Assembly (NCBI GenBank): GCA_026874595.1
Contig: CM049315.1
Span: 19,241,664 to 19,305,663 of the forward strand
Length of the DNA: 64,000 nucleotides
Direction: 5' to 3'
From: Sipunculus nudus
Taxonomy: Eukaryota; Annelida; Sipuncula; Golfingiida; Sipunculidae
Position 1 is the stretch's first letter. The number at the start of each line of letters is the position of its first letter. Positions 519 through 55,755 of this stretch are shown piece after piece. The notes under the pieces are model-generated. The model was not told where the DNA came from, searched no databases, and saw only the letters and a list, made by a program, of their open reading frames with translations. Position numbers and translations under genes: made by a program.

Positions 519-3147
519 ACAAGGGACCTATGGGTCACAGCGCTCAGCTGATATATATGATAAAAAAATAAGATTTAGAAATGAGGCACATGCTGGTTTT
601 ATATGGTAATAAAAATAAGCTGTATTATGAGTTGTTGTTGTTTAGCTTATGTATGATTTTGATAGTACCTTGGAGACAGGAAAGAGAATAAATTTCATTT
701 ATTTCATTAACAAATGGAGTGGGATTGTCACACAGATTTTGACTTGGCCATATAACTAATATAAGCAGAACATATAATATAAAAGTTTAACTATTTATTA
801 GATAAATTACAAATATTGTCCTAAATATAATTTTTATTAAAAATAATAAGAGAATAGTATGATTTTTTCAAATAAAATATGACTGAAATGATTATTAAAA
901 TAATATTAAAGAATATATTCATGAATGCATTCATTAATACATTTTGAAAATATTTGCACTGGTATTCATATACTTTCATTTTTACCTGAATTCCCATTCT
1001 TATGAAAGAACTTTTATAATGGAGTACATATTCATATTCTTGTTTTAATACAATTGCAAAGTATTCGCACCATGTCTGGTATTTATTCAGTTTTCACCAA
1101 GCAATGATGTTGAGAATCCAGAATATACAAAATTCACACATTTAAATAATGATCATAAGTACCTGGTTTTATGGCTTTTATTTATATTAAAAAAAAATGT
1201 AATATATTTATTTTGGACTAATTTCACATCAATGTACACACTAGACACAGTAGGAATCTAGATTAATATTATCAACTGCATCTTTGTCTATCATAAATTT
1301 CCTTCATATGATCCCTAATGATTAGTAATGAATAATAAGATTTACTTTTTTATCATTAAAATTGAACTGAAAAATACCATAGGTGACTGCATGGTGTTAT
1401 TTGGAATACATGACATTCTATCCATCGATACAAGATTCTTATATCATCGGTAACTGCAAGTTAATTTCCTGTTATTATAATCAACTAACAAATTCCTTTT
1501 CTATTTTTCTTTAATTTGTTATTAAAAACCAATAAAAATTTATTAATTTATTGTTATGTTGTTGGTTAAAACTACTAGATGAGTTGGGTTGGACACCTAG
1601 ATCAACTGTGGCTGGCCATTATATAATAAGCTGCCTGGACGCCCCAGTTTATGTCTCGCCTCAAGCATGCATAATTTGCTGAAAGTTCAACCAGGTCAAC
1701 ATACAGGTGACTCAAGAGGTGCTACAGAGAGCCAAGGTCTGACATGGTCTCATAAAAACATTAATAAAAGCTACAATTTTTGGCCAATTTCTTTCAGCTT
1801 TTCAAACTAAAAAGCTGAAATCTTTATGTGTGCATGACATGAAAATTATATCAACAGTACTCACAGGAAACAAACATGCCATGGTCAAAGTTGAGCAAAA
1901 TTTAAGGTACTAATTTTATATTTATACTAATAACTTATACAATTTGAAAAATTCAGAACTAATTTTGGGTATTCAATTGAATCCTGATTAAATAATGTTA
2001 CATCCCTGACAAAAAAATCTCTAGCTTCAGCAATCCTCTTGTTAAGGGAGTAAATATATTTCTTGATTTTTTACAAAGTGCATTATGTTTGGGCCCATAA
2101 CTTAAAACAATTACGCAATACTGACATCATTTCTGGCATGTGCATAGAGAATATATAGAAAAATATGTATATTATATATGATTAAAGTCAGATCAGTGGT
2201 TTTGATATTAGGCTGTCTTGAAGTGTAACAATGGGTTTTTAATGGAAAAATGAAGTTTTTCATTAATATCTGGAAGGTATTAAGTCCTAGTGATCAAATT
2301 CTTGGCATGGTAGGGGATTTTTGAGACATCTAATTGTATGCCAAATTTTAGGAACTGAGAGCTGAAGTTTGGGAGCTGAGCACTTGCAAACTGCATGACA
2401 CTAGTTTGATGTAAACAATATGTTACATGGTGCTTGAAAGCTTGAATAAAATCTACAGTTTTTGATCAACTGGTTTCAAATTTTTGGTGTTTACAGACAA
2501 AATGCTAAAAAAAACATGCTGTGAAAATCCACAGTACTTACAGGAAAAAAACGTGCCATGGTCAAAGTTGGGCAAAATTAAGGTACCAATATTTTATTTT
2601 TGTTAATATTTTAAAAAATTTAAAAGATTTTGATCTAATTTTGGGTATACAATTTAATTTTGATTAATAAAAGTTATATTACTGGAAAAAAAGTTTATAG
2701 CTTTAACATATTTTGTGTTAAGTGATCAAATATCTTTCCTGATTTTTTACACAATGCATTATGTTTGGGCCCATAACTTTTTAAATTTTTATAATACAGA
2801 CATAATTTCTGGCATGTACATAGGAACTATATAGAGGAATAACTATGGTAAATATGAGGAAAAACAGATGAGTGGTTTTGATATTAGGCAGTCCTGAAGT
2901 GTAAAAAATAGGTTTTTAATAAAAAATTGAGGTTTTTCTTTAATTTCTCAAAGGAACAAAGTCGCAAAGACCCAGTTTCGGCTTGGTAGGAGATCTTGGG
3001 GACATCTAACATTATGCCAAATTTTGGATTCCTAGGTCTTACTGTTTCAAAACGTGCCACATCTACGGACGGACGGACGGACGGACGGACAGACGACGGA
3101 CAATGGACCACGACTATAGCTCAGATGACTTATAGTCAGCTGAGCTA
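519..3147 (-). mobile_element. Helentron/HINE-like non-autonomous element, family A, copy 1
   Basis: It begins ACAAGGGACC, with a GACCT-AT-GGGTC hairpin and the inverted repeat GCTCAGCTGA. It ends in a (GACG)n run at about 3061-3090, a 13-bp-arm near-palindrome (AGCTCAGATGACT / AGTCAGCTGAGCT) and CTA. No target duplication is visible; the site is A|A (T|T on the other strand). The interior is AT-rich non-coding DNA with two diverged copies of a roughly 700-bp module containing 'tttgggcccataactt' (near 2090 and 2763). No replicase or helicase is present, so it would depend on an autonomous partner. The strand follows the Helentron convention (hairpin end taken as 3') and is an inference. Confidence 0.65.
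3061..3090. repeat. (GACG)n microsatellite inside family A
   Basis: A short tetranucleotide run of GACG units lies just inside the CTA end of the family A element. Equivalent runs sit at the same relative place in the other complete family A copies, near 7387, 11291 and 19247. This marks it as a constitutive part of the family rather than a chance microsatellite. Confidence 0.8.
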
Positions 3148-4106
3148 AAAAACAGGAACACCAACAAACACCAAAATCTTTTTTAAAAGAAAAGGGCTGT
3201 ACTTCTACTCGTAAGAAATTAACTTTCAAAATAAATGATTCCAACAAGCAAAAACATAATGAGCCTCTCATAACTGTCTTGTCTCATGCGCAAACAAGCG
3301 AGGTTGAAGAGGGGAATAGCTTCCAGTGGATTGACTGGTCCAATAGTTCACGAAATACACAAATTAATAAGTCGGAAAGTCATGTTCATAAAATCTTTCA
3401 CTCCATGCACAGTAGTATTGATGATTCTGAAAAATCAAAAGATGTTCATCATTCAACTGTTAGGTTGCATGACAGTGGGGATATTAATGATGCACTAAAT
3501 AGTATTGATATGTGATTTATTGATTAGCCAATTAAAATTGACCAACTCTGATAGGGAAATACTTGTGAATCAAAATGGCTGGTTAACTTCAGAACATATT
3601 CGTGCAGCCACGCATCTATTAAAAAGACAATATCCTACGATGGGGGGGGGGGGGGGGGGTTACATTAGATCCAATACTTGCACCTTTTAGGGATTATTCA
3701 GACAAGTGGGTTTATGTGGTAAAGTTTAGGAATATTTCAGAGGAGAAGCATGCAGTACAAATTTTACATAATGGAACGGATCACTGGGTATGCGCAATTA
3801 AGGTAAACAAAGATAAGTTTTTATTGGATAGTGGGGCATCAAGCAATTTGACAGAATCATTTAAAATTCAGTTGTCTTGTTTGTTTGGGGGGAAGGAATC
3901 AGAACTTGAGGTGTACAAGCCCAAGGTACAAAAACAGCGTCCAGGATCTGGTGACTGTGCCCTATTCGCTATAGGTAATGCTGTTGAATTGTGCAGCTCC
4001 AATAAAGTGCCTATTCACGCAAAGTTTTTAGATGATAGTGCTGTAATGAGAACACATTTAAAATCTTGTTATGAAAAAGGTGAAGTGACGCCGTTCCCAA
4101 ACAGAA
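3148..4106 (+). pseudogene. DNA-transposon-type gene, part 2: Ulp1/C48-like cysteine protease region
   Basis: This continues the gene interrupted at 518. A polar linker is readable from about 3153 to 3512. After a frame change comes the segment around NQNGWLTSEHIRAATHLL (3555-3620), which typically precedes a Ulp1-like domain in transposon proteins. An 18-base G run near 3642-3659 then shifts frame again. The protease core reads VQILHNGTDHWVC with the candidate catalytic His at 3782, Asp at 3827, oxyanion Gln at 3935 and Cys at 3956 (SGDCALFAIG), ending near PFPNR. C48 proteases cleave SUMO-like or polyprotein substrates and occur in several large eukaryotic DNA transposons. The catalytic set appears present, but the two frame shifts make the copy a pseudogene. 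The substrate is unknown. Confidence 0.6.
3642..3659. repeat. Poly-G tract within the protease gene
   Basis: An uninterrupted run of about 18 G interrupts the coding frame between the HIRAATHLL segment and the Ulp1-like core. It probably arose by slippage. It is one of many long G runs in this window (others near 6526, 10304, 17810, 20698 and throughout 32930-35290). Confidence 0.85.
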
Positions 4107-7100
4107 ACAAGTGACCCATGGGTCATGACGCTCAGCTGACTGGGAAGAGATTCACAAAAGGATATTTTATCATCAGAATGGTAGATACCCATTCAACTGA
4201 AGCATCAAACAGATTAACCAACAGGCCAAGATTTAGTCTGTATTTATATATCTGAAAAATAGAGAAACAAGTGACCCATGGGTCATGACGCTCAGCTGAC
4301 TGGGAAGAGATTCGCAAAAGGAAATTTTTACACCAGAATGTTAGTATATACCCATTCAACTGAAGCATCAAACAGATTAACCAACAGGCCAAGATTTAGT
4401 CTGTATTTATATATCTCAAAAATAGAGAAAAATGTGTAAACTTTTAAAACTAGAATACGGGTAGCCGACAAGTGACTACGTGTATCTGCCAAAATCAGAG
4501 TGAAGTGAGGCATGGATTGAGTGGCAAGGGGAAACAGAGTGAGGTATGTTGCATATTAGCATGGATGTCTGCAGCCTAAATGTGTATGTAGGTTGTGCAA
4601 CCTACCACAAATCCAGAAAGCTGTCCAAGTTGTATACATATGCAAAATTTTAGGCAGAAAACATGGATATGAGTTATTTTAGCCCACGGCAGACAAACAG
4701 ACAGACGCTGTGCAAAAATGGTTGCAGTTTTGTGTATGATAAAGACCTATGTGAGATCTAAACACAAGCACAATTTTGGCCCATTCGGTCAAATGGTTCC
4801 TGAGATATGAGCTTGGATGTGTCCAGCGTTAACTAGAATGTAGGTGGCGCCACCTGTCATAAAATCAAGAAAGCTGTACACGGTGTATAAACCTGCAAAA
4901 TTTTAGGCAGTTATGTCGAACCACTACAGAGAAATGAGTAATTTTAGGCCACGGCAGACTAACAGACAGACACTGTGCAAAATGTGCAAAAATGGTTGCA
5001 GGTGGCCCCTCCAGTATTGTGTATGATAAAGACCTATGTGAGATCTATACACATGCAAAATTTTGGCCCAATCGTTCAAACGGTTCCCGAGATATGAGCT
5101 TGGATGTCTGCAGCATAAACTAGAATAAAGGTGGCGCCACCTGTCATAAAATCAAGAAAGCTATCCAGGATGTATAAAACTGCAAAATTTTAGGCAGATA
5201 TGTCAAACCACTGCCAAGATGCGAGTGACTTTATTGCACGGCAGACAAACAGACAGACGCTGTGCAAAAATGGTTGCAGGTGGTGCCACCAGTTTTGTGT
5301 ATGATGAAGAATAATGTTAGATCTATACACATGCAAAATTTTGGCCCGATCGGTCAAATGGTTCCCGAGATATGAGCTTGGATGTCATCAGCGTGAACGT
5401 GAATGTAGGTGGTGCCACCTGTCATAAAATCAAGAAAGCTATCCAGGATGTATAAAACTGCAAAATTTTAGGCAGATATGTCAAACCACTGCCGAGATAT
5501 GTTTGACATTATTGCACGGCAGACAAACAGACAGACGCTGTGCAAAAATGGTTGCAGGTGGCGCCACCAGTTTAGCGTATGATAAAGAGCTATGTTAGAT
5601 CTATATACATGCAAAATTTTGGCCTGATCAGTCAAACGGTTCCCGAAATATGAGCTTGGATGTCATCAGCGTGAATGAGAATGTAGGTGGCGCCACCTGT
5701 CATAAAATCAAGAAAGCTATCCAGGATGTATACGCATGCCGAATTTCAGGTGAATTAGTCAATTCACTGCAGAGGTATGAGTGATTTTAACCAAAGGCAG
5801 ATGAACAGATGGACACTGTGCAAACATGGTTACAGGTGGCACCACCATTTTTTGTGTATGTTATAGAGCTATCCAAGGGCTACATTAGTATAAATTTTAT
5901 TTCCTGATCAGTCAAACGGTTCCCGAGATATGAGCTTGGAAAGCTGATAAAATCAAGTCCCAGAGGAGCTCTCTGGAAACGAACGCGGCAACGGCGGAGG
6001 AACCCGGTCAAAAACATAGTATCCACAAAACTTCGTTTTGGCGGGTACAAAAATACAGGTGGCTCCACCAGTCTGCAGAAACTAATAAAAACACAAACAT
6101 CAATATCCATGCAAAGAATCATGGTGATCTCCCCATTAGTTGTTCAGATACTTCAGCTTTTGTATCAAATTGTTCATTATTCTGAGGGATACTTCGGAGT
6201 CCTATAGCTTGAAGGATATGGGTAACAGAGACCTAATTTCAAGTTTCCACAGGCACCTTTCATGGGCCTCCTTGCATGACAAGAATGAAGATTCTAGGTC
6301 CAGTTGTTGCGATTTGTACCCTGTTGACAGATAACCACATCTTTAAAGGTCTCAAAAAAAAGAAAAAAATTCGTAAAAATTTGAAAAAAAAATAGAGGTG
6401 GCACACCCAGTCTGCAGAAACTGATGGAACAGCTCATGATCAATATGTATGCCGAAAATCATGACCATCAGTGTTGTAGTTATTGAAATACTGCAGTTTT
6501 TGTATCAAATTTTCCATTATTCTGGGGGGGGGGGGGGGGGTATTTTGGACCCATACAGCTTAAAGAATATGGGTAACAGAGACCTAATTTCAAGTTTCCA
6601 TGGAGACTTTTCATGGGTCTCCCTGTGTGTCAAGAATAAAGATTCTTGGTCCAGTTTTTATGATTTGTGCCCTGTTAACAGATGTTCATATCTTTAAAGG
6701 TCTCAAAAATACAGAAAAATTTCGTAAAAAAAAAACGAACAAATACAGGTGGTGCCACCAGTCTGCAGAAACTGATGAAACACTCCATGATCAATATCCA
6801 TGAAAACAATTATGGTGTTCTCTGGATTAGTTGTTCAGATACTTCAGCTTTTGTATCAAATTTTCCATTATTCTGAGCTGTACTTTGGAGTGCCATAGCT
6901 CAAAGGATACGGGTAACAGACCTAATTTCAGGTGTCCATGGAGACTTATCATGGGTCTCCCTGTGTGTCAACAATGAAGATTCTAGGTCCAGTCCTTACG
7001 ATTTGTACCCTGTTGACAGATAACTACATCCTACATTGTGCCACGTTAACAGATGTTCACATTTTTAAAGGTCTCAAAAATAGAGAAAAAAATTTGTAAA

Positions 7101-7464
7101 AAATCGTAAAAAACCAGTGGCGCCACCAGTCTGCAGGAACTTATGGAACATCTCATGATCAATATGTATGCCAAAAATCATGACCATCAGTTAAGTAGTT
7201 AATGAGATATTGAAGTTTTTGTATGAAATTTTTGACTTTTCTGGGGGGTACTTTGGGGCCCCATAGCTCGAAGGATATGGGTAACAGAGACCTAATATCT
7301 GGTTTCCAAGGAGATTTTTCATGGACCTCTCAGAATCCCAAGTTACAAGGTTCTAGATTCAGCGGTTACGATTTGTGCCTGGTTAACGGACGGACAGACG
7401 GACAGACGGACGACGGACAAAGAGTGATCACTATAGCTCAGATGACTTTCAGTCAGCTGAGCTA
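4107..7464 (-). mobile_element. Helentron/HINE-like element, family A, copy 2
   Basis: It starts ACAAGTGACCCATGGGTC followed by GCTCAGCTGACT. It ends with a GACG-type run (about 7387-7412), the near-palindrome ending AGTCAGCTGAGC, and TA. It is inserted at A|A in the transposon-type gene; deleting it gives an in-frame junction (N-R-K-K-Q-K). The interior is unlike copy 1. It is mostly tandem units of about 300 bp carrying GGTGGCGCCACC-type palindromes (about 4550-5900) and further units up to 7300 with 'ggtggcgccaccagtctgcag'-like cores. The first 156 bp are tandemly duplicated (ACAAGTGACC recurs at about 4266). A piece resembling the hairpin end at 40595-40624 is embedded near 5950-6050. Confidence 0.62.
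4550..5930. repeat. About 300-bp tandem units with GGTGGCGCCACC palindromes
   Basis: Four to five diverged units run in tandem. Each has a 'gatatgagcttggatgtc' block, a palindromic AGGTGGCGCCACCT block, 'ataaaatcaagaaagctatc', 'gcaaaattttaggcagatat', and 'cggcagacaaacagacagac' followed by a second GGTGGCGCCACC-like core. Related units occur at 21960-22850, 35880-36800 and 39160-40440. Confidence 0.75.
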
Positions 7465-8623: not shown

Positions 8624-11396
8624 ACAAGGGACCCATGGGTCACGGCGCTCAGCTGATCGTGATTGGACTATAAATGTTTCTCCACTGTGATACTATATCG
8701 GGTTGATAAAGCTTATGAATATCATGGACATGTTGGGCTATTATAAAGGAATGTAATGTAATATGTGAGTAAATGATAAATGAAATAACCTGACTGATGG
8801 ATTAATAGAGTCAAATATAGTGGTTTATTTTTTATTTATTTAGGAGGGGTTGAAAATTGTGATATATTTGAGCAAATATAAATGCAATGACAGCAGTAAT
8901 AAGCAGTAGTAGAATGATGATAAGGCTATTTGTTGAAGGATCTAAAGTGTATGGTAGTCTGCAAGCTTTCAATTTGACAGATATGATGTTATGATTAACT
9001 ATGCTAATGAAGTGATTTATGAATTTGTGACTGTATGACACAATATCTCTTTAGTCTTGACAAGGTACATTATTGTGATGCCCACTATGTCTACATATTA
9101 CACAATATTGACAATTTCTGGCATGTACATAGGAACGAATAGTTATACAAAATATTAAAGTATGAATATATCTGATTCATCTTGTTCTTGCTTACTGAGG
9201 TTGACTTTGGGATGGGGTTCGGAGAAGGGAAATGTGAGGGCAGCACGAAGGTGGATGTAGAAATATTCTATTGTAATGTTTTTCATTTATATGAGAATAT
9301 GAAAAGCTAAGAGGAAAGGGGCCCTCCTACTTGGTTATAGTAAAGTTCTAAATATATGATTGCAAACTAATACTCTGACAAGACTGTCATGAAGAAAAAC
9401 AGTAAAAGTTTTGAGATACTGTGATGCATATGAAAATTTACAGATGGACAGGCATGTGGACAGAATGGACTAATACCTTTATTTCACTTTCAAAGGAATA
9501 ATGCATTTAAGTTTATATATAATCCTACTTTTTTAAGCATATCCACTTTTTCCATTAAGAAGTTTTTACCTGAATCATTTTTTATTTAGAAGTTTTATAA
9601 ATTCTAAATAAAAAAAACCTGAAATTATAAGTTTAAATATAAGAATTGTTGCAAAAGTTGCAAACATTATATATACAGAGTAAAAAACTGAAACTATAAG
9701 TTAAAATATTAGAATTGTTGCAAAGTTGCAATCATCATATATCAAGAGTGTAGCTCATATTGGGTCATATTATGCATACACATATATTTTATTATTTTTA
9801 AATCATAAATGTTTAAACTGAATTTAAAAGAAAATAATGCCACAACAAGGCATCTACAAGAATATTTCTTGAATCACTATTAAACAGTTTTGCACATTGG
9901 AGTTTTCAGTAAATGCTTAATTTTATTCACCAAAATAAAATAAAAGATTCAGTAAATTTGATAAAATAAAACATCTTTACAAATAAAGTATACACACTGT
10001 TGGTTGAATGAGGGACAAACAATATCATTGTGCTAATTACTATCCGAGTTTTAATTTATAACTGGAATTAATAGTCAATTTCACACCTGGTGAAGTTTTT
10101 ACTCTTCTGAAGTAAGGAATTACTTATCTCATGAACATCCACACTTTCATAGCAATACACCACTTTGTGGACACAATTAAATGTACACTTTAATCATTGT
10201 AACCCTGGTGGTACAATACAAAATCTAAAATGTAGCATAGCCTAGAATAAGAATGAATCAAATACAGAAAATAATAACATTCATCTAGTTTATGCACAAT
10301 CTGGGGGGGGGGGGGGAGTGCAGGGCAGAGGGGAAGCCTGCTGGTAGTGGCCAAGCTGACCCAAGGCAAGCTGCCTGGGGTGGGTTACATAATGCAAGTG
10401 AAGGCTGTACTACGAGGTGGGCTAGATGTAAACAACACTTGACATGGTGTATGAAAACATGAATAAAAGCTATTCTTTCTTTCCAATCAATTTCTTTGAA
10501 ATTTCAGATTTTAAAAGATTAAATCCTTATGTATACATGCTGTGAAAATTAAATCAAAAGTGCCAAAGTGGGACAAAATTTAAGGTATTGATTTTTTATT
10601 TATGCTAATAACTTGAAAAATTTGCAAAATTCAGATCTAATTTTGGGTAAACAATTGAATCTTGATTAAATAAAGTTACATTCCTGATAAAAAGACTCTA
10701 GGTTCAGCAATTCTCATGTTAGGTAAATATATTTCCTGATTTTTTAAAAAATTGCCTTATGTTTTGGCCCATAACTTCAAAATAATACCCAATACTGATC
10801 TAATTTTTGGTATGTTCATAGAAAATGTATGAAAGAATGTGAAAGTAAATACGATAAAAAACAGATCAGTGGTTTTGATATTAGGCAGCCTTGAAGTGTA
10901 ACAATGGCTTTTTTTATGGAAAACAGAGTTTTTTTTCCTTAATATCTTGAAGGAACGAAGATTATTCCTGATTATTTTACAAAGTCCATTATGTTTGGGC
11001 CCATAACTTTTTTAAATTATGTAATACTGACTTAATATCTGGCATGTACATAGGAACTATTTAGAGGAATATTTATGGTAAATATGAAGAAAACCAGATG
11101 AGTGGTTTTGATATTAGGCAGTCCTAAGTGTGAAAATAGATTTCTAATAAAAAGTTGAGGTTTTTCCTTAATATCTCGGTGGAACGAAGTCCTATTGACC
11201 CAATTTTCGGCATGGTAGGAGATTTTGGGGACATCTAACTGTATGCCGAATTTCAGATTTGTAGGTCCAACGGTGTCGAAACGTGCCAGTCTTACGGACG
11301 GACATCCGGACAGACGGACGGACAGACAGACGGACGGACGGAAGACGGACAATGGACCACGACTATAGCTCAGATGACTTATAGTCAGTTGAGCTA
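8624..11396 (-). mobile_element. Helentron/HINE-like element, family A, copy 3
   Basis: It begins ACAAGGGACCCATGGGTC then GCGCTCAGCTGA. It ends with a GACG/CAGACGG run (about 11291-11345), the near-palindrome AGCTCAGATGACT...AGTCAGTTGAGC, and TA. The target A|A lies inside the DDE_1 relic; removal gives in-frame I-K-Q-I-A-A. The interior shares modules with 17170-19310 and 57300-58290, for example 'aagctaagaggaaaggg', 'ttgaatgagggacaaacaat' and a G run near 10304. No protein is encoded. Confidence 0.65.
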
Positions 11397-12830: not shown

Positions 12831-14935
12831 ATGTTGGTATTTTCCTGTTTTGTGACAGGAGCTGAAAGACTCAGCAATTTTTTTAGAGTTGATCTGAAAC
12901 ACTTTTACAAGGTGACTTTGTTAAATTATTATTTATTTAATTTATTGAAGTATTTGCGTAATGTTTGATGTTCAATGACAAACCTCTCATGCAGTATAAC
13001 TCCTTGTATAAGATATACCCATATTGTTTCAAACAGCTGTTGTAAACCATATGTTGAACCATTAATAAATGTGGGGTTAGGATGTGTAATTAAAATTATT
13101 TTCATAATACAACCATATTGAATTCTTGAGTTGCATAAACAAACATATGTCAAAAGAATCTTGTACATCTAATAAAAAGTTGTTCTTCACAGTTAATTTT
13201 TTAATTTTAACAGGAATACTAAATGAACACTGACGATGTGCCCTATGGTCCAATATATGGCACTGTGTGGTCCTATTGTGGATGCAGCATCCACGATTGG
13301 ACCAGTTCTGCAGAAAAAAAATTTACTTTTGACTTTTAGGCAATAGGTGTTACCCAATATATACCAATTGACAAGATGTAATTTTCCTGTAGGACTGCAC
13401 TGGAAATGTTTGTTCAAATCTCCACACCTTTTTTTCAGTATAGGCAGACAGTATTTGTTAAGTGGTACAATCGCGGCAACTCTCCCCTATATCCCCTGTA
13501 ACACCTCCATAGAATTGGTCACAGCTGGAAGAGAAAAAGTCGAACTGATCTTTTCTTTCAAGTGTGAAAGTGGGTCTGGGTGATATTTTAAGAAAACACA
13601 CAAAAAACAGTGTGCTAAGAAATCTGGCAAGAAAAGAAGTCAGTCCAAAAGGAAAATGTGCATAAACAAGTTCAGAACATCACCTCCAAAACATTTCAAG
13701 AACTGCTATTCAGTCAGAAGCAACAAGAAATGTGTGCACTAGCAGGTGGGATTGTTTAAGTCCAGAAAACCTGAAAAACTGTGATGTTGAAAAAACTATG
13801 AACAGATATACCTGAAAGAGGTGCCTCACACATGCATGCCTGTGGCTAAAATAGTCACATCAATCAGCTCTCTAAATATTCCTCATGAAATGAACCGAAA
13901 TACCATATGTTTAATTAGGTTCACTCCACCAGTAATATCAACTTCCAGGAATATTTGGTGCATTGACAAAGAGATTTTCTAATTTCATATCTCTTCAAAC
14001 AATTTCATTTTCATTTCACCTATGATGCCAATGATTGTGATCAAAATAAAACAGGAAAACAACTGAGACATCATCCATTAAAAAAGTTATCGTTGTCAAC
14101 TGTTATCACGTTTGGTGTTTATATTGCCTTAATTGAACAGTGTTGTCTGATTTGTCTTTGGTTATTCAGTATGTTTCTATTTTTTTGACAGTTTTTAAGC
14201 CATCTAACAGGCATCAGATGATAGCACATCATCAGTGTTGCTTTTTCTTATCCTTATTTCATTGTTTCATTGAGGAACTTGTCAAAAACAGAAATGGCCG
14301 TGACTTTCGAGAGCACTTGTGAGTTATGTTCCAGCTGGATTAATTCCTTCAACTGCTGGAGAACAGTGCAGAAAGAACAGGTGCTGGTTTCTTACTTTAA
14401 GGCTTTGTTTAAGTAACAAGGGGTCCAGCCATGTTTTGTCATCTTGGGACCTTATAAATCCATCAACCTGTTGACCTGTATACTTTCTAGTTAGAACTAG
14501 TGCTGGCACAGTGGTGCTATGGTATAAGTTGATAAAGCATATCATTACATCATCATTTCTATTACTCATATTTATTTTCTCGCAGTACCATATGCTGTCA
14601 TTGATGAACAAGTGATAGATCAAAATATGTCCCTTAAATGCCGAGACATCTTTTGTCAAATACACCGCATTTTGTTGCAAGAATGTTAGCATATGGCAGT
14701 GGATTGAGTTTTCCTCACTTTTTTTTTTCTCTGGCACTACATCCAACGTAGAACATGTGAATGTTTTTGAAGGTTTTTACTAACAAATGGACATGTGGTT
14801 CTGCCCTTGGTTAATTCTTTTGTAGTTTTTCATCAATCACTCCAGGGTGCTCCAAACCCAATTTTGAATTGCTGCACTCTACCCTATGTCTCTTCTTGGA
14901 AATTTAATGTGAAACCCTCTTTAAAACAGTTGTAC
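12831..14935. other. Unassigned AT-rich stretch with weak ORFs only
   Basis: No feature can be supported. The longest open stretch is a 140-codon minus-strand frame at 14324-14746 beginning MDVVPEKKKSEENS. I recognise no family in it, and its composition matches the surrounding DNA. Short plus-strand frames at 13347-13583 and 14140-14322 are equally unconvincing. The stretch may include the 3' non-coding part of the DDE_1 transposon. Confidence 0.4.
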
Positions 14936-15081
14936 AGTGATTTACAAGCTATTTATGGGTACCCTCATTAAACCATTTATCTATTGAGCAGTTTTCCTGG
15001 TCACATTGGTGTTGACATGTTTGATCTGACTTCTCTGACCCAGTCCCGAACCCCCCATCCCCACCCGAACCCATCACAAAA

Positions 15082-18000
15082 ACAAGGGACCTATGGGTCA
15101 CGACGCTCAGCTGTTATATATGATAAAAAAATATTATTTAGAAATGAGGCACATGCTGGTTTTGTGTGGTAATAAATATAAGCTGTATTATGAGTTGTTG
15201 TTGTTTAGCTTATGTATGATTTTGATAGTACCTTTGGAGACAGGGAAGAGGATTGATTTCATTTATTTTATTAACAAATAGAGTACTATTGTCACACAGA
15301 TTTTGACTTGGCCATATAACTTATAAGCAGAACATATAATATAAGAGTAACTATTTATTAAAAAAAATTACAAATATTGTCCCAAATATAATTTTTATTA
15401 AAAATAAGAGAATCATATGATTTTTTAAAATGAAATATAACTGATATGATTATTTAAATAATATTGAAGGATATATTCATGAATGCATTCATGAATACAT
15501 TTTGAAAGTATTTGCACGAGTATTCATATACTTTCATTTTTAGCTGAATTCCCATTCTTTATGCAAAAAAATTTTATAATGGAGTACATAATCATATTCG
15601 TATTTAAATACAATCACAAAGTATTCGCACCATGTCTGGTATTTATTCAGTTTTCACCAAACAATGATGTTGAGAATCCAGAATATACAAAATTCACACA
15701 TTTAAATAATGATCATAAGTACCTGGTTTTATTGCTTTTATTTATATTAAAAAATAACTGTAAAAAATTCATTTTGGACTAATTTCACATCAATGTACAC
15801 ACTAGACACAGTAGGAATCTAGATTAATATTATCAACTGCATCTTTGTCTATCATTAATTTCCTTCATATAATCCCTAATGATTAGTAATGAATAATATG
15901 ATTTACTTCATTATTAAAATTGAACTGAAAAATGCCATAGGTGACTGCATGGTGTTATTTGGAATATGTGACATTCTACCCATCGATACAAGATTCTTAT
16001 ATCATCAGTAACTGCAAGTTAATTTCCTGTTATTATAAACTTACAAATTCCTTTTCTATTTTTCTTTAATTTGTTATTAAACACCAATAAAAATTTATTA
16101 ATTTATTGTTTATTGTTATGTTGTTGGTTAAAACTACTAGATGAGGTGGGTTGGACACCTGGATCAACTGTGGCTGGCCATAAGCTGCCTGGATTCTCGC
16201 CTCAAGCCTGCATAATTTGATGAAAGGTCAACAAGGTCAACATACAGGTGACTCAAGAGGGGCTGGAGAGAGCCAAAGTCTGACAGGGTCTCATAAAAAC
16301 ATTAATAAAAGCTACAATTTTTGGCCAATTTCTTTCAGCTTTCTAAACTAAAAAGCTGAAATCCTTATGTGTGCATGATATGAAAATTATATCAACAGTG
16401 CTCACAGGAAACAAACGTGCCATGGTCACAGTTGGGCAAAATTTAAGGTACTAATTTTATATTTATACTAATAACTTATAAAATTTGAAAAATTCAGAAC
16501 TAATTTTTGGTATTCAATTGAATCTTGATTAGATAATGTTACATCCCTGACAAAAAAATCTCTAGCTTCAGCAATGCCCTTGTTAAGGGAGTAAGTATAT
16601 TTCTTGATTTTTTACAAAGTGCATTATGTTTGGGCCCATAACTTAAAACAATTACGCAATACTGACATCATTCTTGCATGTGCATAGAGAATGAAAAATA
16701 TGTATATTATTTATGATTAAAGTCAGATCAGTGGTTTTGATATTAGGCAGTCTTGAAGTGTAACAATGGGTTTTTAATGGAAAAATGAAGTTTTTCATTA
16801 ATATCTCGAAGGTATTAAGTCCTAGTGACCAAATTCTTGGCATGGTAGGGGATTTTGGTGACATCTAACTGTATGCCGAATTTAAGGAACTTAGAGCAGA
16901 AGCTGGGGAGCTGAGCTCTTGCAAACTGCATGACACTAGCTTGATGTAAACAATATGTTACATGGTGCTTGAAAACTTGATTAAAATCTACAGTTTTTGA
17001 TCAACTGGTTTCAAATTTTTGGTGTTAACAGTTGAAATGCTAACAAAAACATGCTGTGAAAATTAAATCCACAGTACTTACAGGAAAAAAACGTGCCATG
17101 GTCAAAGTTGGGCAAAATTTAAGATACCAATTTTTTATTTTTATTAATATTTTAAAAAATTTTAAAAGATTTTACAAGTTTTATAAATTTGTATTAAAAA
17201 AACACTGAAAATATAAGTTAAAATATTAGAATTCTTAGTTTCAATCATTATACATCCAGAGTGTAGCTCATATTCGGTCATATTATGCATACACATATAA
17301 TTTTATTATTTTTAAATCACAAATTTTTAAACTGAATTTAAAAGAAAATAATGCCACAACATGGCATCTACAAGATTATTCCTTGAATCACTATTAAAAA
17401 GTTTTGCACATTGGAGTTTTCAGTACATGCTTAATCTTATTCACCAAAATAAAATAAGATTCTGTAAATTTGGTAAAATAAAAACATCTTTTCAAATAAA
17501 GTATACACACTGATTGTTGAATGAGGGACAAACAATATCATTATGCTAATTACAATCTAAGCTTTAATTTATTCCTGGAATTATGGTCAATTTCACACCT
17601 GGTGAAGTTTTTACTCTTCTCAAGGAAGGAATTACTTGTCTGATGAACATCCACACTTTCATAGCAATACACCACTTTGTGGACACAATTAAATGTGCAC
17701 TTTAATCATTGTAACCCTGGTGGTAAATACAAAATCTAAAATGTAGCATAACCAAGAATAAAATGAAATACAGAAAATTATAACATTCATCTAATTAATG
17801 CATCATCTAGGGGGGGGGGGGGGTGTGCAGGGCAGAGGGGAAGCCTGCTAGTAGTGGCCCAGCTGAGCCAAGACAAGCTGCCTGGGGTGGGTTACATAAT
17901 GCAAGTGAAGGCTTTACTACTAGGTGGGCTAGATGTAAACAACACTTGACATGGTGTATGAAAACTTGAATAAAAGCTACTCTTTTCAATCAATTCCTTT

Positions 18001-19314: not shown

Positions 19315-19399
19315 AAAATGCTGGTCATTTTAAAGCTGGATAACCCTTCACATTTGTTGCAATGACATATTTTCTTATAATAACATATAATGTCAGTGA

Positions 19400-27265: not shown

Positions 27266-27270
27266 TAATT

Positions 27271-32918: not shown

Positions 32919-32929
<11 letters not shown>

Positions 32930-32949
<20 letters not shown>

Positions 32950-38500: not shown

Positions 38501-39135
38501 CGTTTGAACAAACTTCAGAAAGCACTACCCTAGGATCATTTCTGTGCGATATTAAACATTTTGGCCATATGGTTTCAGAGAAGAAGTTTTTTGTAGTCCT
38601 CAGTGTGATACAAGCACTGATGACCCCGTACAAAAAAGGCCAATGCAGGTGGCGCCACCAATACCTCAATTTCAGATATGATCTATGTGACCAACATTGG
38701 CATAAAATTTGGTGATGATAGCTCCAGCCATTTCTGAGATTTGAATTTTAATATGCTTTTTTGAACAGATATTAAAGTTCAACCTCCTGTAACTCTGCCA
38801 AAAATCTCCGAACTAGAACCATTCGAACAAACTTGAGAAAGATTGTTCCAGGGATCATTTCTGTGAAATATTGAACAATTTGGCTGAACAGTTTCAGAGA
38901 AGAAGATTTTTAAAGCTTTTTTAGCTTTTTCCCCATAAAATCTAAGAAAATGCAGTTAGAAAAAAAATAAACAAAATCCAAATAGTTTTTTGGATGACTG
39001 ATTATTTGCAAAAAAAATTGGGTGATGCTAGCTCCTGCTGTTTTTGAGATAGCTATGGTTAACGTACAGACGACGCACAACGTACGACGCACGATACACG
39101 ACGCTGCACCATCCCATAAGCTCACAGGTTCGCTA
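35594..39135 (-). mobile_element. Helentron/HINE-like element, family B, copy 2
   Basis: It starts ACAAGGCCTACAGGCCT followed by a perfect GCGAACCTGTG, and ends CACAGGTTCGC-TA, an 11-bp exact subterminal inverted repeat. Its interior is as in copy 1, plus one extra roughly 370-bp tandem unit (37173-37915). The last 100 bp include irregular 'gacgcac' repeats, parallel to the GACG run of family A. Confidence 0.65.
37173..37915. repeat. Tandem duplication of about 370 bp, block 2 only
   Basis: The segment 'gccaaaactatatatagagc' through 'acattgcctggtatg' is repeated directly (second unit starts at about 37548). Block 1 has a single copy (about 23255-23625), so the duplication followed block duplication. 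Confidence 0.8.
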
Positions 39136-43949: not shown

Positions 43950-46160
43950 AAAAGACCATCCTGGTTTTTGTTATGAAACTTTGATTGAGGTTTGGATAGA
44001 AAATTGTGTGCTTTTGAATTTCAGACCAACAGGATTCCAGGTATTGAAATGTTGAGGATTTGCAGCTATAGAGAATTGTCCTTTTGTTTTTCAGACCAAC
44101 AAGATAAAAGTTCAGGTAATGGTGATGGAGGTTTGGCACCTATAGAAAATTGTTTGTTTGCATGAAAGATTTTATTAACACAAGATAGTACTAAATACAC
44201 GGTGATCATGAAGGGAATTCAGAGTATCAAAGGGATTGAGTGCAAGCCTGAAGGCTTAGGTTTGTTGCTCCCATGACATACAGAATTATTGATTATTGAC
44301 AGTATTAGAGAATTGTGTGCTTTTGTATTTCAGACCAACAAGATTCCAGTTCAGAGAATGGTGATTGAGGACTGGCACTTGTAGAAAATTGTGTGATTTT
44401 GAATTTCAGACCAACAGGATTGCAGTTCAGGGAATGGTGATTGAGGACTGGCACCTATAGAAAATTGTTTGTTTGCATGAAAGATTTTATTAATACAAGA
44501 TAGTACAAAATACACGGTGATCATGACAGTATTAGAAAATTGTGTGCTTTTGTATTTCAGACCAACAAGATTCCAGTTCAGGGAATGGTGATTGAGGACT
44601 GGCACCTATAGAAAATTGTTTGTTTGCATGAAAGATTTTATTAATACAAGATAGTACAAAATACACGGTGATCATGACAGTATTAGAAAATTGTGTGCTT
44701 TTGTATTTCAGACCAACAAGATTCCAGTTCAGGGAATGGTGATTGAGGACTGGCACCTATAGAAAATTGTTTGTTTGCATGAAAGATTTTATTAATACAA
44801 GATAGTACAAAATACACGGTGATCATGACAGTATTAGAAAATTGTGTGCTTTTGTATTTCAGACCAACAAGATTCCAGTTCAGGGAATGGTGATTGAGGA
44901 CTGGCACCTATAGAAAATTGTTTGTTTGCATGAAAGATTTTATTAATACAAGATAGTACAAAATACACGGTGATCATGACAGTATTAGAAAATTGTGTGC
45001 TTTTGTATTTCAGACCAACAAGATTCCAGTTCAGGGAATGGTGATTGAGGACTGGCACCTATAGAAAATTGTTTGTTTGCATGAAAGATTTTATTAATAC
45101 AAGATAGTACAAAATACACGGTGATCATGACAGTATTAGAAAATTGTGTGCTTTTGTATTTCAGACCAACAAGATTCCAGTTCAGGGAATGGTGATTGAG
45201 GACTGGCACCTATAGAAAATTGTTTGTTTGCATGAAAGATTTTATTAATACAAGATAGTACAAAATACACGGTGATCATGACAGTATTAGAAAATTGTGT
45301 GCTTTTGTATTTCAGACCAACAAGATTCCAGTTCAGGGAATGGTGATTGAGGACTGGCACCTATAGAAAATTGTTTGTTTGCATGAAAGATTTTATTAAT
45401 ACAAGATAGTACAAAATACACGGTGATCATGACAGTATTAGAAAATTGTGTGCTTTTGTATTTCAGACCAACAAGATTCCAGTTCAGGGAATGGTGATTG
45501 AGGACTGGCACCTATAGAAAATTGTTTGTTTGCATGAAAGATTTTATCAATACAAGATAGTACAAAATACACGGTGATCATGACAGTATTAGAAAATTGT
45601 GTGCTTTTGTATTTCAGACCAACAAGATTCCAGTTCAGGGAATGGTGATTGAGGACTGGCACCTATAGAAAATTGTTTGTTTGCATGAAAGATTTTATTA
45701 ATACAAGATAGTACAAAATACACGGTGATCATGACAGTATTAGAAAATTGTGTGCTTTTGTATTTCAGACCAACAAGATTCCAGTTCAGGGAATGGTGAT
45801 TGAGGACTGGCACCTATAGAAAATTGTTTGTTTGCATGAAAGATTTTATTAATTCAAGATAGTACAAAATACACGGTGATCATGACAGTATTAGAAAATT
45901 GTGTGCTTTTGTATTTCAGACCAACAAGATTCCAGTTCAGGGAATGGTGATTGAGGACTGGCACCTATAGAAAATTGTGCTTTTGTATTTCAGACCAACA
46001 GGATTCCAGGTCTTGAAATGTTGAGGATTGGCACCTACAGAAAATTGTGTCCTTTTAAATTTTAGTCCAACAGGATTGCAGGTCTTGAAATGTTGATAGA
46101 GGATTTGCACTTATAGAAAATGGTGTGATAATGCATTTCAGACCAATCAGGATTCCAGTG
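43950..46160. repeat. 151-bp tandem array with diverged edges
   Basis: Nine full near-identical 151-bp units start at 44526, 44677, 44828 and so on, followed by a partial tenth at 45885. Diverged relatives lie on both sides (43950-44520 and 45975-46160). Each unit has 'tgtgcttttgtatttcagac', then 'caacaagattccagttcagg', and ends 'aaatacacggtgatcatga'. Core units differ at only one or two positions, which implies recent amplification or strong homogenisation. Minus-strand 74-codon frames repeat every 151 bp only because of the array. Confidence 0.93.
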
Positions 46161-49254: not shown

Positions 49255-49735
49255 CAGCTCTGTCATGGTGCTACAGGGGATATAATGACCAGCTCTTTGG
49301 TGGTGTGCAGGGAATATAGTGACCAGCTCTATGATGGTGTGCAGGGGATGTAATTATCAAGTCTATAATTATATTTGCAGGGGACATGGTGACCAGACCA
49401 TGATGGTGCTGCAGGGGATGTAGTGTTTAGGATAGTGGAGATGCTGCAGATGATATAATGACCAGCACTATTGTGATACTGAAGGGGTATAGTCTCAAGC
49501 TGAATGGTGGTGGTGCAGGGGATATAATGGCAAGCTGAATGGTGATACTGCATTGGTAAAGTGTCCAGCTGAATGGAGATACTGCAGGGGTATAGTGTCC
49601 AGCTCAATGGTGCTGCAGGAGATATAATGACAAGCTCTATGGTGATGCTACAGGGGATATAGTCACCAGCTCTATAGTGGTGCTACAGGGCACATAGTGA
49701 CCAGCAGTCACCAGCTGTATGGTGATGCTATGATG
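49255..49735. repeat. About 35-bp minisatellite, right part
   Basis: The units resume with 'cagctctgtcatggtgctac' directly after the LINE tail. They run to about 49735, with more divergence towards the end ('aagctgaatggtgatactgc'). Confidence 0.88.
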
Positions 49736-51924
49736 AGAAAGCTTGTGTGAAAAAGTTTGACTTTTAAAAAAGTAAGAAAAAACCAAGTGATATTTCAACA
49801 CACACTTAATATGTGAAAAATGCAGGTATATGACGTTTCAGCTCAATCCCACTGTAATTCACATTTCCAATCATTTTATCAAACAAAGGCAAGATGTCAA
49901 TCAGCAAAGCTTTGCTGTAAAAAATGTCATTGTCATTAAACACTGATCATGCATGTGCATCACTGGTTCTAAAATATGCACAAACAAGTCAAAATTCATC
50001 ATCAGATGTTGATTTGGACAAAGAAAGTACAAAAAAATTACCATTTGAACAAGGTATGACAAAAAGTATAAAATGTAGTCTTTCCTGAAAAATTGTAATA
50101 TTTAAAAAAAGTATGAAGTGGCAGCACTGTATGTCATAACATCTAATTCCACAAGGTAAAATTACTCTACAAATAAATACAACAGACTGACTGAAGAACC
50201 AACAATGACCATACAGGCAATACTGGTGAGCCCAGGCAATTCAAGGTGAATGAAAAATACGTTAAGGTCTCCATGAATCAGTGAATTTGTTATCTGTTTA
50301 TGAATGATGTCCTAGATCTTCTCTCATTTTTTTTCTTTTCTTTATATATCATCACTGGCATCATATATATGAAATGGTAATAAAATCCTTTACAAATGGT
50401 AAAAAAATCAAACATGTAAAGACACATGATGATTATAGCATATTTTCTTAATGACTTTTAAACAGCATGTCTTAGATGTGATGCTACTATCATTTTGGCA
50501 TGAACTTATTTTTTATGTTGTTTCAGAATTTAAGTGACTGTTGAACACTTGATCCTCACAGACATATGTGGTAAGATATGAAGATGAGAACTGGTAATCA
50601 GGAATATGTGCTATGTCATGTGATGTTACAGCGCAAACAATGAACAGACAGACATGAAACTAGGCCATTCTGACTGAAATATAAAAAAAACAATCTGAAC
50701 AAGAAAAGACCAATCAGAAAACTCTTGAATCTAGGCAAGCAGGTTGAATGTAGAATTAAAAAAGTCCAACATGATTCAGCCTGACAATGATATCTTTTTA
50801 TCAGTAATGTCACAGATCTTTTATTTTTTTTTCCATCTTTATAATCATCAGTGATATCATGTAATAATTGAAAATGAAATCAATTGTAGAAAAACAAAAT
50901 CAAAAGCTTTTTGTCAATATATGCATCAAATATTCCTCCAAGTTAATATCTGTGCTTGAGTGAAAATGTGTCAGTCTTCAGTAAGCAATTTTGTTCACTT
51001 CATGTGAAATATCTTAGATTAACAAGCGCAGTTTGGTGTGATTTTTTCTTTATTTTCAACAGGCAATGGCTCCTGGGAGGTAGTTTTCTTCAAACGCATT
51101 TGTGCATCATTCTCTTTGCATCACCAAGCCCTTCAGCCTTTTATTGACTTTTAACAATCCCATCTGTTTTCGTGCAAAACAGTTTTTGCTAGTCTGGCAT
51201 TGTTTTTTTTTGCTATTTTGGGATTGCCCAGAATGTGAAATGCAGTGATGGTGATGTTCTGAACCTATTTATACAGGTTTTCCTCATGCCAGTGTCCGAC
51301 CACACCTGCGAGGTTTCTTTTAAGGTAGAAAATCTGTATTTTTTAGTTAGAAAAAGGATCACATTTTTGACAGAAAGAAATGTTAACAAAGGAGATAATT
51401 TAATGACACATCATTTTGACTCAATATTCTATCCAGCTTGGTTGACTTGTCTTTATTAATTATTGTGCAAGAACTCTAGAAAGAACAAAACTCCGCCTTA
51501 CTGTTCATGAGATGATCATCAAGATAAAGGTTCTGTTCATATTTATTTGATTCATATTTATCCATGATGTCTCAGACTTTAAGCAACATGGTTTAACCTG
51601 ACACTATGTTCATCACTGACATCATATGGTGAGAGTGAAAACTAAGGTGAACATTTAAACTTAATGATATGCTACATCATCTGATACCAAAAGGCCAAAT
51701 ACTATGAACTGAGTATAACAGACTAAACAACAAGACAACAAACAAGGCAATATTGTTGAGTATATGCAATTTAGGTTGGTACTGAAAAAAAGAATTTACT
51801 TTCCTAATGATATATTTTACCATCTTTTGCCAAAGCACAAAAAAGAAGAAAGACTGAAACATGAAGACTAACAAGGCAATAAATATTGTCCTGTTGGTTC
51901 AACACAAGCTGAACATAAAATTAA
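49736..51924. other. Unassigned AT-rich stretch
   Basis: No gene, RNA or repeat boundary can be supported. Diverged sequence blocks such as 'catcactggcatcatatata' (about 50349) and 'catcactgacatcatatggt' (about 51611) suggest an old dispersed repeat with a unit near 600-700 bp, continuing after 55756. Confidence 0.4.
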
Positions 51925-54900
51925 ACAAGAGACCCAGGGGTCTAATGTTCACTCTGTGAATTACTGTGCATTTTGGCAGGTGATTAAAAAAAATGTTTCA
52001 GAAAGATCAGTCCAAGAGTCTCAGAGGAGACTCTGTTTTGGCAGATTATAACAAATAAATACTTCATGACATATTATGGATAAATGTGGAAAAGACCATT
52101 ACAGCCTGCTGAAAGTAGCTAAACACAGGTAGTGCTACCTGCAGGTCAAAATCATTAAGCAGTCACATGATCAATATTCCTGTGAAATTTGAAACTGAAG
52201 GCTGCAGCAGTTCCTCAGATATTTAGTAACAGACAATACATCATGTATGGAAACACATCAAGTTGTTAAATTTTACGATCTAAGAAAATTTGAAGTTCCG
52301 TAGAGACGCCATCTTGAGAATGACTTGACTAAATTTATACTCAAATTATTTCCCGTCCTCTAAGGAACTGTTGACTATGATATGAAGGCCAAAATATTAA
52401 TACTTTGTGACTTATCTAGTAAGACGTGGAAAAGACCATTTCGTCCCGCAGAAAGTAGGTCAACAAAGGTGGCGCTACCTGGAGGTCAAAATCATTGAGC
52501 AGTCACATGATCAATATCCCTGTGAAATTTGAAACTGAAGGCTGCAGCAGTTCCTAAGATATTTGGTAACAGACAATACATCATGTATGGAAACACATCA
52601 AGTTGTTAAATTTTACAATTGACAAAATTTGAAGTTCCGTAGAGACGCCATCTTGAGAATGACTTGACTAAATTTTTACTCAAATAATACCCCTTCCTCT
52701 AAGGAACTGTTGACTATGATATGAAGGCCAAAATATTAATGCTTTGTGACTGATCTAGTAAGAAGTGGAAAAGACCATTTCGTCCCGCAGAAAGTAGGTA
52801 AACAAAGGTGGCGCCACCTGGAGGTCAAAATCGTTGAGCAGTCACATGATCAATATTCCTGTGAAATTGGAAACTTGAAGGCTGCAGCAGTTCCTAAAAT
52901 ATTTGGTAACAGACAATACATCCTGTATGGAAACCATTAAGTCGTCAAATTTTGCAATTGTCACAATTTGAAGTTCCGTAGATATGCCATCTTGAAAATG
53001 ACTTAACTGAATTTATACTAAAATTATTATTTCCCTTCCTCCTAGTAACTGTTGACTATGATATGAAAGCCAAAGTATTTATACTTTATGACATATCTTG
53101 GAAAAAAGAGAAAAGACCATTACAGCCTGTAGAAAGTAGGTCAACACAGGTGGCGCCACCTGGAGGTCAAAATCATTGAGCAGTCACATGATCAATATTC
53201 CTGTGAAATTTGAAACTGAAGGCTGCAGCAGTTCCTAAGATATTTGGTAACAGACAATACATCCTGTATGGAAACCATCAAGTTGTCAAATTTTGCAATT
53301 GTCACAATTTGAAGTTCCGTAGATATGCCATCTTGAAAATGACTTAACTGAATTTATACTAAAATTATTATTTCCCTTCCTCCTAGTAACTGTTGACTAT
53401 GATATGAAGCCAAAGTATTTATACTTTATGACATACCTTGGAAAAAAGAGAAAAGACCATTACAGCCTGTAGAAAGTAGGTCAACACAGGTGGCGCCACC
53501 TGGAGGTCAAAATCATTGAGCAGTCACATGATCAATATTCCTGTGAAATTGGAAACTGAAGGCTGCAGCAGTTTCTCAGATATTTAGTAACAGACAATAC
53601 ATCCTGTATGGAAACACATCAAGTTGTTATATTTTGCAATCAACACGATTTGAAGTTCCATAAAGACGCCATCTTGAGAATGACTTGACAAAATTTTTAC
53701 TCAAATTATACCCCTTCCTCTAAGGAACTGTTGACTATGATATGAAGGCCAAAATATTAATGCTTTGTGACTTATCTAGTAAGAAGTGGAAAAGACCATT
53801 TCGTCCTCCAGAATGTAGGTCAACAAAGGTGGTGCCACCTGGAGGTCAAAATCATTGAGCAGTCACATGATCAATATTCCTGTGAAATTTGAAACTGAAG
53901 GCTGCAGCAGTTCCTAAGATATTTGGTAACAGACAATACATCCTGTATGGAAACCATCAAGTTGTCAAATTTTGCAATTGTCACAATTTGAAGTTCCGTA
54001 GATATGCCATCTTGAAAATGACTAAACTGAATTTTTACTCAAATTATACCCCTTCCTCTAAGGAACTGTTGACTATGATATGAAGGCCAAAATATTAATG
54101 CTTTGTGACTTATCTAGTAAGAAGTGGAAAAGACCATTTCGTCCCCCAGAATGTAGGTCAACAAAGGTGGCGCCACCTGGAGGTCAAAATCATTGAGCAG
54201 TCACATGATCAATATTCCTGTGAAATTTGAAACTGAAGGCTGCAGCAGTTCCTAAGATATTTGGTAACAGACAATACATCCTGTATGGAAACCATCAAGT
54301 TGTCAAATTTTGCAATTGTCACAATTTGAAGTTCCGTAGATATGCCATCTTGAAAATGACTTAACTGAATTTATACTAAAATTATTATTTCCCTTCCTCC
54401 TAGTAACTGTTGACTATGATATGAAAGCCAAGTATTTATACTTTATGACATATATTGGAAAAAAGAGAAAAGACCATTACAGCCTGTAGAAAGTAGGTCA
54501 ACACAGGTGGCGCCACCTGGAGGTCAAAATCATTGAGCAGTCACATGATCAATATTCCTGTGAAATTGGAAACTGAAGGCTGCAGCAGTTTCTCAGATAT
54601 TTAGTAACAGACAATACATCCTGTATGGAAACACATCAAGTTGTCATATTTTGCGATCGACACGATTTGAAGTTCAATAAAGACGCCATCTTGAGAATGA
54701 CTTGACTAAATTTTTACTCAAATTATACCCCTTCCTCTAAGGAACTGTTGACTATGATATAAAGGCCAAAATATTAATGCTTTGTGACTTATCTAGTAAG
54801 AAGTGGAAAAGACCATTTTGTCCCGCAGAAAGTAGGTCAACAAAGGTGGCGCCTCCTGGAGGTCAAAATCATTGAGCAGTCACATGATCAATATTCCTGT

Positions 54901-55755
54901 GAAATTGGAAACTGAAGGCTGCAGCAGTTCCTAAAATATTTGGTAACAGACAATACATCCTGTATGGAAACCATCAAGTTGTCAAATTTTGCAATTGTCA
55001 CAATTTGAAGTTCCGTTGATATGCCATCTTGAAAATGACTTAATTGAATTTATACTAAAATCATTATTTCCCTTCCTCCTAGTAACTGTTGACTATGATA
55101 TGAAAGCCAAAGTATTTATACTTTATGACATATCTTGGAAAAAAGAGAAAAGACCATTACAGCCTGTAGAAAATAGGTCAACACAGGTGGCGCCACCTGG
55201 AGGTCAAAATCATTGAGCAGTCACATGATCAATATTCCTGTGAAATTTGAAACTGAAGGCTGCAGCAGTTCCTCAGATATTTGGTAACAGACAATACATC
55301 ATGTATGGAAACACATCAAGTTGTCATATTTTGCGATCGACATGATTTGAAGTTCCATAAAGTCGCCATCTTGAATATTACCTGACTGAATTTACACACA
55401 AATTATTCCCCTTCTTGTCGCCATCTTGAAAATTACCTGACTGAATTTACACACAAATTATACCCCTTCTTCTAAGGAACTGTTGACTATGATATGAAGG
55501 CCAAAATATTTATACTTTATGACTTATCTTGGAAGAAGTGGAAAAGACCATTTTGTCCCGCAGAAAGTAGGTCAACATAGGTGGTGCCACCAAAAGCTTA
55601 TTTTTGCATGTCCATCCCAAGATCATTAATTCTGCAAAGTTTCATTAAGGTAGCTGCTGTGGCTGTTGAGATATTTGGTAACAGACGGTGGACAGTTGAC
55701 AGTGGACAGTGGACGGCGGACGCTGCGCCATGGCATAAGTTCACAGAGTGAACTA
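51925..55755 (-). mobile_element. Helentron/HINE-like element, family C
   Basis: It starts ACAAGAGACCCAGGGGTC (hairpin GACCC-AG-GGGTC), then the inverted repeat GTTCACTCTGTGAA. It ends TTCACAGAGTGAAC-TA, so the subterminal inverted repeat is 14 bp and exact. Before the CTA end lies an irregular 'gtggacagtggacgg' run parallel to the GACG run of family A. The interior is almost entirely the 340-bp tandem array. The flanks are ..ttaa | aaaatgtc.., with no duplication seen. No protein is encoded. Confidence 0.65.
52100..55600. repeat. About 340-bp tandem units inside family C
   Basis: About eleven units. Each has GGTGGCGCCACCTGG (or a one-base variant), 'aggtcaaaatcattgagcag', 'tcacatgatcaatattcctg', 'gctgcagcagttcctaagat', 'acagacaatacatcctgtat' and 'gttgactatgatatgaaggc'. 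Palindrome positions are roughly 52129, 52470, 52808, 53150, 53490, 53829, 54166, 54505, 54845, 55187 and 55578. Two sub-types alternate ('cattacagcctgtagaaagt' and 'catttcgtcccgcagaaagt'), which suggests amplification of a higher-order dimer. Confidence 0.92.

Follow-up and report, generated by a model that had tools for sequence, protein, structure and literature searches.

How do mobile elements with unrelated ends come to carry related interiors? The question is posed by a 64,000-nucleotide stretch of the Sipunculus nudus genome (the window, picked for its repeats), in which a first-pass annotation had described seven full-length copies of a rolling-circle-like element in three families with different inverted repeats, and had taken their common interior modules as a sign of exchange between families. 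Judging by their sequence, the elements are very probably non-autonomous Helentrons (HINEs) and fall into four end-families, here called A, B, C and H. The interior that one family A copy has in common with family B is an element of family H with termini of its own, and its presence in both is better read as nesting, followed by joint movement, than as exchange.

Ends, target sites and class of the elements

The copies are read on the minus strand, with the hairpin end as the 3′ end, on the left in window coordinates, and the other end as the 5′ end, on the right. Three subterminal inverted repeats (subTIRs), GCTCAGCTGA, GCGAACCTGTG and GTTCACTCTGTGAA, are far commoner in the window than expected by chance (7, 3 and 2 exact matches against 0.10, 0.01 and 0.00, respectively) and bracket the seven copies: four of family A (A1, 519–3147, with its 5′ end at 3147 and its 3′ hairpin end at 519; A2, 4107–7464; A3, 8624–11396; A4, 15082–19314), two of family B (B1, 21647–24837; B2, 35594–39135) and one of family C (51925–55755, with ~339-bp repeats in its centre). 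All seven were recovered in a common frame of family-specific subTIRs, a hairpin at one end and a GACG-like run at the other, with boundaries that agree within the window, but not all are simple copies, as B1 and B2 lie in one larger duplicated unit and the head of A2 is doubled. Beyond the earlier list, the window holds a truncated A copy (A5, 56711–58289), which has an intact 3′ hairpin end and whose likeness to the other A copies stops at 58289, an internal fragment of an A element (24836–26575) and the ends of family H at four places; all of these likewise lie on the minus strand.

The limits of the elements, proposed as ACAAG...CTA, can be read directly from the alignments. Homology among A1, A4 and A5 begins at AAACAAG, and the A1–A4 likeness stops at GAGCTAA. 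The head junction is AAA/CAAG in six of eight heads (A1–A5 and C; the stroke marks the junction) and TA/CAAG in both B heads, which represent one inherited junction, while all seven tails have CTAA. The subTIRs are present at both ends and are 10 to 14 bp long, with one mismatch in A3 (tail), A4 and B1 (head) and H2, and two in H1. A palindrome is present near the 3′ end only. Just inside the 5′ subTIR, family A has a complementary inverted repeat, TCAGCTGAGC with GCTCAGATGA (one mismatch), and H2 has GCGGATAC with GTATCCGC; none is evident in B, and the C subTIR is itself largely palindromic. The 5′ end further contains a GTCY-like microsatellite, which takes the form (GACG)n in A1–A4 and is degenerate in B and C. 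In A2, the 3′ end with its hairpin and subTIR is tandemly doubled (4103–4430; 163 bp, ~93–94% identical) and has two ACAAG ends. The tail modules of B and C are related (62–65% over ~130 bp) though their subTIRs differ, and the end repeats apparently do change in concert.

A strict version of the frame (CAAG, a hairpin, a perfect 10-nucleotide subTIR pair and TA) found four heads, from three elements, on the plus strand and none on the minus strand of the whole window, compared with 0–1 per simulated sequence (both strands, n = 20). A looser version found nine on the plus and three on the minus strand against 1–9 per strand in 15 simulations, which is no excess, and brought no further families. 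The case therefore rests on the recurrence of the ends and on their boundaries rather than on the frame alone. Rfam gave no match at the gathering threshold. A DNA-pattern search for relatives returned 0, 0 and 2 matches in viral contigs and one in genome contigs, and these three were dismissed as chance, the 60 bases on each side, inspected by eye, holding neither an ACAAG end nor a HINE frame.

The proposed target, T/T (A/A on the strand shown) with no visible duplication, is borne out at the A-run junctions and most clearly at A4. The joined A4 flanks match 26640–26802 at 90.6%, which makes a clean empty site with an A-run at 26712–26719. This run has eight As, and the filled site has five at each end, which amounts to 4 + 4 if the element is ACAAG...CTA, so that no target duplication is needed. 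The joined-flank test was applied to A1–A4, C, H1 and H2 and detected empty sites in two of seven cases, A4 and, within a diverged repeat, H1; for C, the right flank alone had a match (72%, at 50400–50483). In contrast, a long terminal repeat (LTR) retrotransposon in the same array (27133–31668) has a 5-bp duplication, ATGTC.

These junctions also bear on whether the elements could be miniature elements of the terminal-inverted-repeat type (MITEs) that depend on a cut-and-paste transposase, the form in which Pearl-type elements were reportedly first described. Inverted repeats at both ends and the lack of coding signal in the scanned open reading frames (ORFs) inside the elements would suit such an origin, but the repeats are subterminal rather than terminal, the hairpin stands beside one end only and there is no target duplication beyond the A-run, let alone one of fixed length; the LTR retrotransposon nearby does show its duplication. 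A MITE origin is thus highly improbable. Canonical Helitrons, with 5′-TC, 3′-CTRR and an A/T target, were rejected as well; the 3′ hairpin of Helitron1 is held in common, and H also ends in CTAG, but the elements lack the 5′-TC and the A/T target, and families A, B and C have CTTG as their 3′ terminus, within T/T.

Instead, the subTIRs, the 3′-only palindrome, the GTCY-like run, the TT sites and the absence of duplication together point to Helentrons and HINEs, as first proposed; the distinctions among Helitron1, Helitron2 and Helentron are set out in PMC5148889. The architecture is already known from oysters (Cg_HINE, Pearl), and the window adds members and a nested case. The account of Cg_HINE from Crassostrea gigas (PMC7492417) describes a 5′ subTIR with a complementary inverted repeat, a GTCY-like microsatellite, central tandem repeats, a 3′ subTIR with a palindrome, TT sites without target site duplication and several unrelated families per genome, all of which resemble the window. 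Drosophila DINE-1 and the mite element HINE-Mo (PMC4067079) likewise have subTIRs, a 3′ palindrome and a T-rich target without duplication, and in DINE-1 an inverted repeat adjoins the 5′ subTIR; the distance from the 3′ subTIR to the 3′ end is, however, ~20–25 nucleotides in the window compared with 38–60 in HINE-Mo, and the interiors in the window are larger. The Pearl elements CvA, CvE and CvG and DTC84 of bivalves, modular and with central repeats (PMC5139131, PMC11136912), are likened here by description only.

Several observations weigh against this assignment. The A hairpins fold weakly, no better than many shuffles, with 54 to 338 of 500 letter shuffles equally stable (B1, 3; B2, 15; C, 6 of 500). 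The A-run sites leave room for a duplication of one or two As, and the joined flanks of A1, A2, A3, C and H2 (five of the seven tests) have no empty paralog in the window. Finally, a scan of 50 of the 52 stop-to-stop ORFs of at least 90 amino acids revealed no Rep/helicase (Pfam, E up to 0.01; shorter degraded pieces were not sought, and ORFs 30308–30667 on the plus and 49332–49682 on the minus strand lay outside the scan), in agreement with the earlier remark that the window holds no replicase. The Pfam matches in the scanned ORFs were to aspartyl protease, reverse transcriptase, RNase H, integrase zinc finger and GDSL lipase, with a weak phage-integrase domain and two sub-threshold DUFs (2299 and 459).

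Family H and its insertion into the A2 array

While their ends are unrelated, A2 and both B copies have ~1.1 kb in common at ~71% identity. This block begins sharply at AAACTAG in A2, B1 and B2 and in a stand-alone element with both ends present (H2, 39173–40625), so that the sequence to its left is of three unlike kinds (in A2, in B and at 39173). At the border one reads CTAG-AATAYGG-GTAGTC-(7)-GACTAC, with GTAGCC in A2, and is followed by TGTATCYGCCAAAA; the 6-bp hairpin is perfect in B1, B2 and H2 and has one mismatch in A2. The first ~120 bases are better conserved than the block as a whole (B2 against A2, 84.9%; B2 against H2, 86.4%). H2 closes with TTTTGGCGGATACA (40612–40625), the reverse complement of TGTATCYGCCAAAA, and its two subTIRs differ at one of 14 positions. 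Having its own hairpin, subTIRs, ends and inner complementary repeat, H is therefore a separate HINE-type family.

Within A2, the block corresponds to an H element with two ends (H1, 4450–6049), of which the left has CTAG, a GTAGCC/GACTAC hairpin and a subTIR, and the right, closing at 6049, has TTTTGGCGGGTACA; the subTIRs differ at two of 14 positions. A2 has ~351-bp repeats of its own, mostly to the right of 6050, and the joined flanks of H1 match these across the junction, at 6693–6841 with 79.9% over 149 bp and also at units 6342–6490 (71.3%) and 7064–7209 (71.1%). The flanks thus rejoin into a diverged but intact A2 repeat, which demonstrates, as far as sequence can, that H was inserted into the A2 tandem array.

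In family B, H segments lie at ~21833–22897 in B1 and ~35756–36821 in B2 (right limits approximate). Their intact 3′ hairpin ends suggest that H was inserted here too, although the 5′ end was not found in either copy, which counts against this extension of the nesting. Since B1 and B2 both carry H while their 5′ flanks differ, the composite seems to have been mobilised as a unit.

Could the families nevertheless have exchanged interiors, central arrays being swapped between HINEs with different ends by recombination or by template switches in rolling-circle replication? The A2/B block flanked by unrelated ends, the related B and C tails with unlike subTIRs, and the related flanks with unrelated arrays reported for oysters (PMC7492417) would all accord with such swapping, and a cut-and-replace idea has been discussed for Cg_HINE. 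However, the left border of the block has a hairpin and a subTIR that belong to the block itself, which also has a complete stand-alone counterpart in H2 and in A2 is flanked by sequences that rejoin into an intact repeat. We therefore consider exchange unlikely and do not retain it for the module common to A2 and B; that the families share interior modules stands in so far as the block and the B/C tails are indeed related, but the former is an H element, nested in A2 and presumably in B. Nesting accords with the account of Cg_HINE (PMC7492417), where the integration of HINEs into other transposable elements is named as expected. There, one flank pair is described per repeat cluster, and recombination, junction fragments or filler-type insertions are put forward to explain double arrays, the last as one possible source; the window differs in that a HINE complete with both of its ends lies nested in the array of another, the two cases being compared by description and not by sequence.

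A canonical Helitron was also considered for H and dropped. CTAG is present, but the 5′ end is TGTAT..., not TC, and beyond the point where a TC end would fall, H1 and H2 have TACAA in common.

The B unit and segment X

The likeness of B1 and B2 runs from ACAAG to CTA and continues past the hairpin into a segment termed X, which has no assigned strand. Next to B1, X spans 14936–21646 and is split by A4, without which it measures 2478 bp; next to B2, it spans 26576–35593 and is split by the LTR retrotransposon, without which it measures 4482 bp. The length difference lies in the minisatellites, which are longer in the latter copy. In seven sampled segments (gaps left out), identity is 94.9–98.5% within X (four segments) and 94.0–98.5% within B (three segments), and the minisatellite stretch 19389–20893 aligns at 90.2%. 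On the other side the likeness ends at the B 5′ end, where the right flanks of the two copies become unlike; B1 joins the internal A fragment (24836–26575) there, at a position equal to A1 707/708. The 5′ border of the B unit is thus apparent from the sequences themselves.

A unit fixed at its 5′ end and extended at its 3′ end fits the polarity of rolling-circle transposition and agrees with the minus-strand reading of the elements made earlier. In Helraiser, the hairpin is described as a terminator whose bypass carries flanking DNA along (PMC4778049), and by analogy B transposition probably ran past its hairpin and took the flanking DNA with it. Segmental duplication of B and X is a less probable but still substantial alternative, which would account for the X left limits without a canonical terminus and for flanks that restore no simple empty site; that the right limit of both copies coincides with the B 5′ end, with unlike flanks of which one is a precise A/A-type site in an A element, speaks for read-through instead.

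The history of B is incomplete, and a number of points detract from read-through past its hairpin. No clear terminus is seen at the X left limits (14936 and 26576). The A fragment between the B copies lacks both ends, and its missing head does not lie where it would be expected, at the left flank of B1-X. B1-X and B2-X were each tried as one simple insertion and rejected, as neither flank pair rebuilds a known site. Finally, relatives of X stand inverted at 50094–51689 and 56145–56301, so that X counts as a repeat independently of B. Diverged inverted copies (62–86%) of the repeat just left of X and of its minisatellite were also observed around C, relating 13650–14650 to 50094–51689 and 56145–56301.

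Read on the minus strand, the elements begin with T/AG-subTIR (T/TG in H) and end with subTIR-hairpin-CTTG/T (CTAG in H). From Helentron and Helitron work, an autonomous Rep/helicase encoded elsewhere would be expected to nick the 5′ end in a T-run, one strand would be displaced up to a stop at the 3′ hairpin, and the product would be inserted between two Ts without target duplication. The interiors, mainly tandem arrays, would be free to change. H inserted into the DNA of other HINEs, in the A2 array and presumably in B, the composite would then have moved as a unit, and in the B lineage transposition past the hairpin would have taken flanking DNA along; the enzyme, the strand, the read-through and the joint movement are here what we infer.

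Central repeats, orientation and neighbouring elements

The otherwise diverged central repeats contain a palindrome, GGTGGCGCCACC, whose arms are GGTGG/CCACC and whose two central bases vary. It occurs 17 times (4843–55591), always in the repeats of H1 (within A2), B2, H2 and C, and near forms are found in B1 and in the A2 repeats proper. In 41 aligned plus-strand matches, the ten arm bases hold 1.7–2.0 bits, compared with 0.97 for the two central bases and with lower values in most, though not all, flanking columns, in an alignment that was seeded with the palindrome arms and is partly circular as a measure of conservation. In an unseeded control with units cut by period, one palindrome was the best-conserved window among ten H units (1 of 266 as good) and the other was not outstanding (50 of 266), while in ten C units the palindrome was not specially conserved (130 of 326). 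The window has 26 palindromes of at least 12 bp and at least 40% G+C, compared with 2–9 in ten simulations, the tandem copies not being independent. The palindrome letters turned up in one unrelated paper only among the literature searched. In DTC84, a palindrome close to the repeat junction is reportedly conserved (PMC5139131, PMC11136912), and we therefore do not claim the present one as new.

All recognised copies (519–58289), the nested ones included, lie in the same direction. These amount to nine secure separate insertions (A1–A5, B counted once, C, H1 and H2), or eleven with the A fragment and the H in B. The strand counts agree, being 20:0 for GACGGAC, 4:0 for TATAGCTCAG and 7:1 for ACAAGNGACC. 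Runs of at least four As outnumber T-runs by 718 to 597, only 1.2 times, so that target supply alone does not explain the single orientation. Cg_HINEs are reported to occur in both orientations (PMC7492417), and a single orientation in one window selected for repeats proves little.

The LTR retrotransposon at 27133–31668 lies within a 113-bp minisatellite, encodes aspartyl protease, reverse transcriptase and an integrase zinc finger, has LTRs of ~130 bp that are 92.5% identical and was classed by reading as Gypsy-like. A second retroelement (58803–63889) has one ORF resembling a GDSL lipase, one for a reverse transcriptase and one with a weak likeness to phage integrase that falls short of the Pfam cut-off; we take it to resemble DIRS/Ngaro elements. 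At 44382–45978, about ten 151-bp tandem repeats, 97–99% identical, form an apparently recent array.

A broader proposal would be that HINEs prefer the A-runs in the arrays of other HINEs and are then carried along, that nesting and read-through rather than recombination chiefly account for HINEs with double arrays or mixed families and for satellite spread, and that the GGTGG/CCACC palindrome serves as a terminator-like hairpin in the interior, allowing arrays to vary in length as they are copied by the rolling-circle route. As a whole this is unlikely, and its palindrome part is weak.

Elements of this kind are nothing unusual for bivalve-like genomes, and the style of the repeats is one seen in molluscs. 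What the window offers is, first, a worked case in which apparent module swapping between HINE families is resolved as a nested insertion with its empty site present in the same window, and, next, in the B unit with its fixed 5′ end and extended 3′ side, natural though unproven evidence for the polarity of transposition. The double arrays of oyster HINEs could share the same nesting cause.

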